Positions 29,111-37,679 of a stretch of 64,000 nt of DNA are shown piece after piece. Where the stretch lies: the NCBI RefSeq assembly GCF_004209775.1, contig NZ_CP035914.1, forward strand, positions 2,356,001 to 2,420,000, given 5' to 3'. The position numbers were made by a program, and so were the translations under genes. The notes beneath the pieces were generated by a model, which was given only the letters and a program-made list of their open reading frames with translations, made no database searches and had not been told where the DNA came from. This DNA is from Synechococcus sp. WH 8101. GTDB taxonomy: Bacteria > Cyanobacteriota > Cyanobacteriia > PCC-6307 > Cyanobiaceae. Numbering within the stretch: the stretch's first letter is position 1; every line of letters starts with the position of its first letter.

Positions 29111-29149
29111 GCCTCGATAGGCGTTGTGTGTGTCAACGCCTATCGAGGC
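29111..29149. repeat. Perfect 16-bp inverted repeat between ndhF and ndhD
   Basis: GCCTCGATAGGCGTTG (29111-29126) and CAACGCCTATCGAGGC (29134-29149) are perfectly complementary around TGTGTGT. Neither strand has a T-run after the stem, so it is not a standard terminator. It lies in the 112-base ndhF-ndhD gap and could act as an mRNA processing or stabilising hairpin, or as an operator for a dimeric regulator. Confidence 0.93.
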
Positions 29150-36425: not shown

Positions 36426-37028
36426 TCAGGAGGGACCCTGATCGACAAGCAGAGGTGTGCGCGCCTTTTCAATCAAGCCCTGATCGGCCACAGCGCCGGT
36501 GCCCAGGTCGGTGGACTGCACATCGCGACGGGCCAGAACGATCGCCCCGATCATCGCCATCAGCAACAAAACAGACGCGAGCTCGAAGGGAAGCAGGTAA
36601 TCCGTGAAGAGATGCTCGCCGATCCGCTCGGTCGCCCCCTCACCGATCGCCGCCGGACCTGGCACAGCCCAGGGAGTGGTGACCACCACCCGCACCAATA
36701 GGGCGAACAAACCGGCACAGACGCCGGCGGAAAGCAGCCGCCGAATCGGCAGACCCTGAATCGGCGCCAGGTCTTCCCGTTTGTTGACGAGCATGATCGC
36801 GAACAGGATCAGCACGTTCACCGCCCCCACATAGACCAACACCTGGGCCGCAGCCACAAAGCTGGCATTGAGGAGGAGATAGAGACCGGCAACCGCCAGA
36901 AACACGCCACCCAACAGGAAGGCGGAATACACAATGTTGCTCAGGAGCACGACGCCGAGAGCGCCGATCACTACCACTGCAGCAAGCGCAACAAAACAGA
37001 TGAGCTGGGTGGACGCTGCGATCGTCAT
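36426..37028 (-). CDS. ndhG: NDH-1 subunit 6
   Basis: A 200-residue NuoJ/NdhG subunit with five membrane helices: LGVVLLSNIVYSAFLLGGVF, AGLYLLLNASFVAAAQVLVYVGAVNVLILFAIMLVN. The start ATG (37028) overlaps by ATGA the stop (37025) of the displaced ndhI tail, not the stop of the in-frame ndhI ORF. Confidence 0.96.
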   Translation of the reverse strand: MTIAASTQLICFVALAAVVVIGALGVVLLSNIVYSAFLLGGVFLAVAGLYLLLNASFVAAAQVLVYVGAVNVLILFAIMLVNKREDLAPIQGLPIRRLLSAGVCAGLFALLVRVVVTTPWAVPGPAAIGEGATERIGEHLFTDYLLPFELASVLLLMAMIGAIVLARRDVQSTDLGTGAVADQGLIEKARTPLLVDQGPS

Positions 37029-37177
37029 TCCGCGCTCTCCTCCTTGGCAGGGGCCGTTGCAGAGGATTCTCCACCATCCGCCGCATCGGCACCATCCGAA
37101 GGGGCAAGGTTGGCCAGAACCTGCTCCGGCAGCTGACCTGCCCTGGGCTGATCCGCTGGCACGTCGTGGGGATCAGC
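37025..37177 (-). pseudogene. ndhI: Displaced C-terminal tail of NdhI (frameshifted, 50 residues)
   Basis: In the frame offset by one base from ndhI, the minus strand reads [15 protein letters not shown], then LPEQVLANLAPSDG and an Ala/Glu/Ser-rich end, stopping at 37025. This is the kind of tail that follows LPAG in full-length NdhI of related cyanobacteria (about 215-220 residues in total). Joined to the 168 in-frame residues it would give 218. The stop overlaps the ndhG ATG by four bases, a normal operon junction. The tail has no start codon or Shine-Dalgarno of its own. Confidence 0.8.
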
Positions 37178-37187
37178 CCAGGGCAGG
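37137..37187. repeat. Perfect 18-bp inverted repeat at the ndhI frameshift
   Basis: CCTGCCCTGGGCTGATCC at 37137-37154 is the exact reverse complement of 37170-37187, with a 15-base spacer. Position 37175, where the in-frame ndhI ORF hits its premature TGA, lies inside the right arm. As RNA it would form a very stable hairpin within the coding region. Confidence 0.95.
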
Positions 37188-37679
37188 CAGATAGCCGAGT
37201 TCGCGCAGCGGCTGCACGGAAGGGTCGGTGGTGACGCTGGTCGGCAGGCGGCCGAGGGCGACATTGTCGTAATTGAGGCTATGGCGATCAAAGGACGCCA
37301 GCTCATATTCCTCCGTCATCGAGAGGCAGTTGGTGGGGCAATACTCCACACAATTGCCACAGAAAATGCAGACCCCGAAATCAATGGAATAATTGCGCAG
37401 CTCTTTTTTCTTCGTCTCCTTGTTCATCACCCAGTCGACGACGGGCAGGTTGATCGGGCAGACCCGCACGCACACCTCACAGGCAATGCACTTGTCGAAC
37501 TCGTAGTGAATCCGGCCGCGATAGCGCTCTGATGGAATCAGCTTCTCGTAGGGATACTGAACCGTGACCGGCCGACGCTTCATGTGGTCGAAGGTGACCG
37601 CCAATCCCTGGGTGAGATTGCGGGCTGCATCCACGGCATCCCTGGTGTAGTCACCTACCTGCTTGAGAAATCCGAACAT
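37173..37679 (-). CDS. ndhI: NDH-1 subunit I, prematurely ended by an apparent frameshift
   Basis: The in-frame ORF has 168 residues: an amphipathic N-terminus ([20 protein letters not shown]), and two 4Fe-4S motifs, [12 protein letters not shown] and [12 protein letters not shown], which carry electrons in the peripheral arm. It ends [11 protein letters not shown] and TGA at 37173, about 50 residues short of relatives. The missing tail is open in the next frame (37025-37177). Both cluster-binding motifs are intact, so the short protein could still work. Explanations: a real indel, a sequencing error in the GC-rich hairpin, or ribosomal frameshifting. Confidence 0.9.

Follow-up and report, generated by a model that had tools for sequence, protein, structure and literature searches.

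Why does the ndhI gene of Synechococcus sp. WH 8101 stop at 168 residues when about 218 are expected, and why does its stop codon sit within one arm of a perfect hairpin? The answer we favor is one slip during replication, which most likely created the 18-bp hairpin and removed the conserved tail of a core NDH-1 subunit. The strain belongs to clade VIII, was isolated at Woods Hole in 1981, is cultured in SN medium and was re-cloned from one colony; its genome is a circle of 2,630,292 bp (PMC7033273), of which the window analyzed here is a stretch of 64,000 nt. WH 8101 is kept in culture and was sequenced for work on cyanophage resistance; the truncation of its NdhI should be known to those who use it to study the physiology of photosynthesis or carbon uptake.

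The ndhI locus and its hairpin

As present in the window, ndhI (37173..37679, minus strand) encodes an NdhI of 168 aa that ends in ...LGYLPALG and is closed by a TGA at 37173-37175. A repeat search of the window returned a perfect inverted repeat with arms at 37137-37154 and 37170-37187 (18 + 18 nt, 100% complementary, 15-nt spacing), and the TGA falls within the second of these. Read in gene sense, the 5′ arm, CCTGCCCTGGGCTGATCC (37170..37187, minus strand), carries the new stop and is the arm that appears to have been overwritten; the 15-nt spacer (37155..37169) separates it from the 3′ arm, GGATCAGCCCAGGGCAGG (37137..37154, minus strand), the putative donor. Beyond the stop, the orphaned 3′ end of the old gene is still open in its old frame (37025..37174, minus strand; 49 codons plus a stop, ...KEESAE) and includes the peptide AGQLPEQVLANLAP. 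Its terminal TGA overlaps the start codon of ndhG as ATGA. The preliminary description of this DNA had reported the perfect 18-bp repeat, the end of NdhI after LPALG at a TGA inside an arm, and the tail open in the next frame with a four-base overlap with the ndhG ATG; all of these hold, the repeat to the nucleotide.

The downstream gene, ndhG (36426..37028, minus strand), is intact at 200 aa. Its start once overlapped the ndhI stop and now lies 144 nt downstream of the new one, which uncouples the two genes. A Shine-Dalgarno-like AGGAGG (37039..37044, minus strand), 10 nt ahead of the ndhG ATG, may permit initiation independent of coupling to ndhI. After the shift, ndhI and ndhG share one frame with a single TGA between them (37026-37175, minus strand), such that one readthrough event would yield an NdhI-NdhG fusion; we assign no function to this shared frame.

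Perfect arms of at least 18 nt (loop 3-60) are expected from composition at 0.0003 per window and 0.0016 per 400 kb, and the longest arms in 40 first-order Markov windows were 10-14 nt. The ndhI hairpin is the longest perfect one (loop 3-60) in the surrounding 400 kb of the genome, where only one other has arms of at least 15 nt. When the corresponding 100 nt were examined in 28 relatives, their longest perfect inverted repeats measured 4-9 nt; that of G018, the closest relative found, measured 5 nt, versus 18 in WH 8101. The predicted RNA folding energy of the region is -46.7 kcal/mol (z -6.0) in WH 8101 versus -31.4 kcal/mol (z -1.7) in G018. Two functional identities for the hairpin were rejected: an intrinsic terminator, because inspection by eye shows no run of T after it in gene sense, and a conserved element, because it is missing from the 28 relatives.

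Comparison with relatives and a probable template-switch origin

G018 is probably RS9917, which is named as the sole other sequenced clade VIII strain (PMC7033273). NB0720_010 was considered as a second nearby strain and set aside because the available part of its description places it in subcluster 5.2 (PMC9387257). The preliminary description had called for an alignment with close relatives, and this alignment reveals copying of one arm onto the other. In gene sense, the G018 sequence reads CTG CCTGC-AGGCGTGATC-GATCC CCACGACGTGCCGGC GGATCAGCCCAGGGCCGG and that of WH 8101 reads CTG CCTGC-CCTGGGCT-GATCC CCACGACGTGCCAGC GGATCAGCCCAGGGCAGG. The 20-nt G018 counterpart of the overwritten arm is CCTGCAGGCGTGATCGATCC. 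Ten nucleotides are thus exchanged for eight, with an edit distance of 7 and a net change of -2, and the eight new bases reproduce a portion of the donor arm in reverse complement. The derived tract matches the inverted donor exactly over 18 of 18 nt, with the arms 15 nt apart. Flanks, spacer and donor arm are nearly identical between the two strains: the spacer carries one difference, the donor arm one synonymous base (GCC to GCA, Ala), and the upstream 498 nt are 92.6% identical. The ancestral sequence is read mainly from G018, at this identity over the core, together with more distant relatives.

WH 8101 represents the derived state, because the loci of relatives run on with a full-length NdhI. 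A genus search matched ndhI in 29 of 31 genomes, WH 8101 counted among them; two incomplete genomes (70% and 73%) gave no match and a third (58%) gave a partial one. NdhI is intact at 213-223 aa in 28 of 28 relatives scored, from 32 loci scanned for length (three were WH 8101 and one was missed by the start motif). In a larger set of 110 loci (one WH 8101, eight lacking the exact anchor motif, two cut by contig ends), all 99 scorable loci continue beyond the WH 8101 stop point in one frame and none carries the change; both cut loci also read beyond the stop point before the cut. Some genomes are represented more than once in these sets. The earlier expectation that NdhI of related cyanobacteria is longer and continues past this point is thereby borne out, and no scorable locus of a relative ends naturally at the same place (0/99). 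The tract is found in WH 8101 alone, with no perfect repeat above 9 nt at this position in any of the 28 relatives. Among the best 120 of 1562 protein matches there is no 168-aa form; that set was clustered at 90% and also lacks the WH 8101 protein itself, which leaves room for other truncated strains. Over 50 codons, the orphaned tail differs from G018 by seven synonymous and three non-synonymous codons, and an open tail with so few changes fits a recent loss.

At the level of sequence, these alignments establish the replaced tract, its donor, the derived state and the absence of the change from the relatives examined. We consider it highly probable (about 0.9) that one quasi-palindrome template switch was responsible for the perfect repeat as well as the net -2 frameshift. 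The preliminary description had suggested such a switch, with one arm copied onto the other; that proposal agrees with the G018 comparison, whereas the one-base shift it assumed is in fact the exchange of 10 nt for 8. The event would have taken place in an ancestor of the sequenced clone, where synthesis of the nascent strand had passed through the donor arm and the spacer and extended over the first five bases (GGATC) of the other arm. The strand would then have folded back and paired this 5-nt end with the donor's GATCC; extension on the donor by about 8-13 nt would have preceded its return to the proper template at CCTGC/GCAGG. The outcome would be ten ndhI bases turned into eight, an 18-bp perfect hairpin, a -2 frame and translation that stops at 168 residues. 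We infer the simultaneous origin of all the edits from the improbability of the alternative. The direction of copying can be read, from the near-ancestral downstream arm (gene sense) onto the upstream arm, and the likely jump points would be the 5-nt end matches, GGATC/GATCC on the inner side and CCTGC/GCAGG on the outer side. A counterpoint is that the prior pairing is short, being 5 nt on the inner side and 5 nt on the outer side only if the GCC to GCA change in the donor came beforehand. The sign of the GC skew, positive over 300-620 and 680-760 kb and negative over 1.8-2.6 Mb, suggests an origin near coordinate 0 and a replication fork that probably moves right to left at ndhI; a self-templated event would therefore be a lagging-strand one. 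An inter-strand jump would fit equally well.

Mutation of this type is already known. Quasipalindrome template switching is established in E. coli, with the Ripley 1982 model, the thyA hotspot and lacZ reporters (PMC7202029). As described there, an imperfect inverted repeat is perfected by copying arm onto arm, as in WH 8101, to which the present case adds a frameshift. It differs in being cyanobacterial, in affecting a core bioenergetic gene and in starting from a poor repeat with 5-nt end matches. Short-range template switches have also been traced by comparative genomics in great apes (PMC7954356), yeast coding genes (PMC8604942) and rRNA hairpins (PMC8794818). The likeness to ndhI is that a cluster of mutations is a local reverse-complement copy and that perfect hairpins appear at once, whereas the ndhI case concerns a bacterial protein gene and a frameshift. 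The yeast study, in its available portion, left indels unconsidered (PMC8604942), and the ndhI event includes one that shifts the frame. No earlier report of the WH 8101 case was found among the titles and opening abstract lines of the open-licence papers listed. The ndhI locus supplies a clean natural case from bacteria, in a core gene, and there is evidence that such switches recur in this genome pair.

The shortened NdhI and competing explanations

The truncated NdhI still scores 318.9 bits in a profile search against NCBIfam TIGR00403 ndhI (cut-off 302.35; profile positions 1-165 of 183), and its translation retains both 4Fe-4S motifs (CIACEVC...C and CIFCGNC...C), as do the NdhI chains of NDH-1 from cyanobacteria and plastids. 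The truncation removes a conserved C-terminal PH...PRAG..P segment together with a variable tail. The P, H, R, G and P of this segment are present at 98-100% in the 99 loci, so it appears to be under constraint in cyanobacteria, and Thermosynechococcus NdhI (PDB 6hum_I, 196 aa) retains it as the relatives' loci do, unlike WH 8101. The plastid NdhI chains (7wfg_I, 7eu3_I, 9grx_I) are 163-172 aa long and seem to be without the segment, because their alignments to the G018 protein end at residue 157-160; a short NdhI can therefore work in a related complex. Lys86, Lys89 and Lys91 of T. elongatus NdhI contact ferredoxin, and deletion of ndhI in Synechocystis nearly abolishes NDH cyclic flow (PMC7021789). 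The accessible portions of the NDH-1 structure literature, including PMC7021789, name roles for the N-helix and hairpin loop of NdhI and none for its C-terminal tail. Since both Fe-S motifs and the lysine loop are kept and the plastid chains are also short, we infer that the shortened NdhI would still be functional in NDH-1.

The template switch may have been real and the truncation nevertheless selected, in culture or in nature, if a short plastid-like NdhI were beneficial rather than neutral or mildly harmful. This possibility concerns fixation only and is compatible with the template switch. It gains some plausibility from the history of the strain, kept in SN medium since 1981 and re-cloned from a single colony (PMC7033273), and from the 163-172 aa of the PDB plastid chains. 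We nevertheless regard selection as unlikely: the lost segment is conserved in cyanobacteria at the five positions given above, there is no sign of an advantage, and a single-colony bottleneck suffices to fix a neutral change.

Two further accounts, both offered in the preliminary description, would leave the gene unbroken, and we find each very improbable. In the first, the hairpin is a sequencing or assembly artefact, through the compression named there or, as a further route, through copying of the hairpin in vitro, and the real ndhI is intact. Hairpins are hard to sequence, and the genome was assembled from PacBio data first, with indels corrected by hand; coverage was 175x PacBio and 45x MiSeq, from a single colony, with MiSeq reads used for the indel correction (PMC7033273). 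Compression drops bases from a genuine hairpin and would predict relatives with this hairpin minus one base, yet it is absent in 28 of 28. Moreover, the change is a 7-edit block replacement, so that deleting one base does not recover the sequence of the relatives, and the same signature is present in the independently assembled G018 (see below). A gene-breakage comparison meant to gauge assembly errors proved too noisy for that purpose in this GC-rich DNA, being dominated by spurious long frames and by the choice of starts. With a codon-position filter it gave frameshift-like results for 23 of 639 reference genes in WH 8101 and 33 of 648 in G018, which says only that frameshifts do not look commoner in WH 8101 than in G018.

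In the second account, ribosomal (+1) frameshifting at GGC-TGA yields a full-length NdhI. The 49-codon open tail, with its few codon differences from G018, speaks for this account, but a recent mutation would account for that tail just as well. Signals of the prfB type serve as a yardstick for reading such sites, and just before the TGA neither a Shine-Dalgarno-like stimulator nor a slippery codon is apparent by eye. The 99 scorable loci need no shift, and the frameshifted arrangement is not conserved in relatives.

Recurrence between WH 8101 and G018

We scanned an alignment of WH 8101 with G018 (964,887 columns, 94.0% identity), which covers 300-620 kb, 680-760 kb and 1.8-2.6 Mb of WH 8101 where alignable (0.96 Mb), for tracts bearing at least three edits and matching an inverted template no more than 120 nt away. 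At a length of at least 14 nt there were nine hits at seven distinct loci, one terminator-like hairpin being counted in both directions and two hits being inverted copies of each other; four hits were taken as WH 8101-derived and five as G018-derived. Controls at this length gave 1 and 1 hits for reversed-only templates, 0 and 0 for complement-only templates and two hits in 12 runs for templates shifted by 400-1200 nt, together four hits over 16 runs in a single direction, from which about 0.5 would be expected when both directions are scanned. The excess is weaker at a length of 12 (15 hits versus about 5), and we therefore claim only the longer tracts. Ordinary substitutions do occur at the ndhI locus, as the GCC to GCA change in the donor arm attests, but given nine scan hits against about 0.5, and seven edits within 10 nt that all fit a local inverted template next to a core 92.6% identical to G018, a chance origin of the repeat from separate point mutations plus a 2-nt deletion is extremely improbable.

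Two of the seven loci are terminator-like by eye, and there selection on pairing could have acted in place of a template switch. Three further loci were compared in eight relatives, and outgroups help to polarize two more events, one in each strain. At WH 8101 1803285, a 34-nt tract carrying 10 edits is an inverted copy of the end of an opposing ABC-transporter gene (...YAELAELQERGLAKL) and has overwritten the 3′ end of a convergent hydrolase-like gene, both names coming from a reading of the sequences alone. The putative hydrolase gene (genome 1802468-1803883) now reads ...SHATELAELQERGLASEL... and encodes 471 aa versus 292 aa in G018; the 4-nt gain at this site is absent in G018, G028 and the other aligned relatives. 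Around G018 2214252, a gene start is three bases longer than in WH 8101 and also carries several substitutions. G028 and G015 have the shorter form; because G008 and G012 share the longer length with a different sequence, polarity here rests mainly on G028 and on sequence unique to G018. A perfect 20 + 20 hairpin lies at this gene start (G018 2214216-2214269) and probably arose by a similar template switch.

Seven loci in 0.96 Mb lead us to propose, tentatively, that short inverted template switches are a regular gene-altering source of mutation in marine Synechococcus, with at least two genes affected in WH 8101: ndhI, leaving a viable NDH-1 on a tail-less, plastid-like NdhI, and the hydrolase-like gene. 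Judging from this small census, such events may be common enough in natural bacterial genomes to matter for the interpretation of multi-base mutations, apparent pseudogenes and new hairpins.

Elsewhere in the window, the third of the loci compared in relatives is a perfect intergenic hairpin (16 + 16, loop 7) at 29111-29149 (genome 2385111-2385149). Its arm CAACGCCTATCGA, which may be a regulatory site, is largely common to G028, G022 and G004, and the other arm has been homogenized to it in WH 8101; in the spacer region at 2385120 the outgroups are too diverged for one arm to be aligned well. Finally, six 250-aa frames with equal statistics recur at a spacing of 2,437 bp between genome positions 531971 and 544906, suggesting a long tandem repeat.
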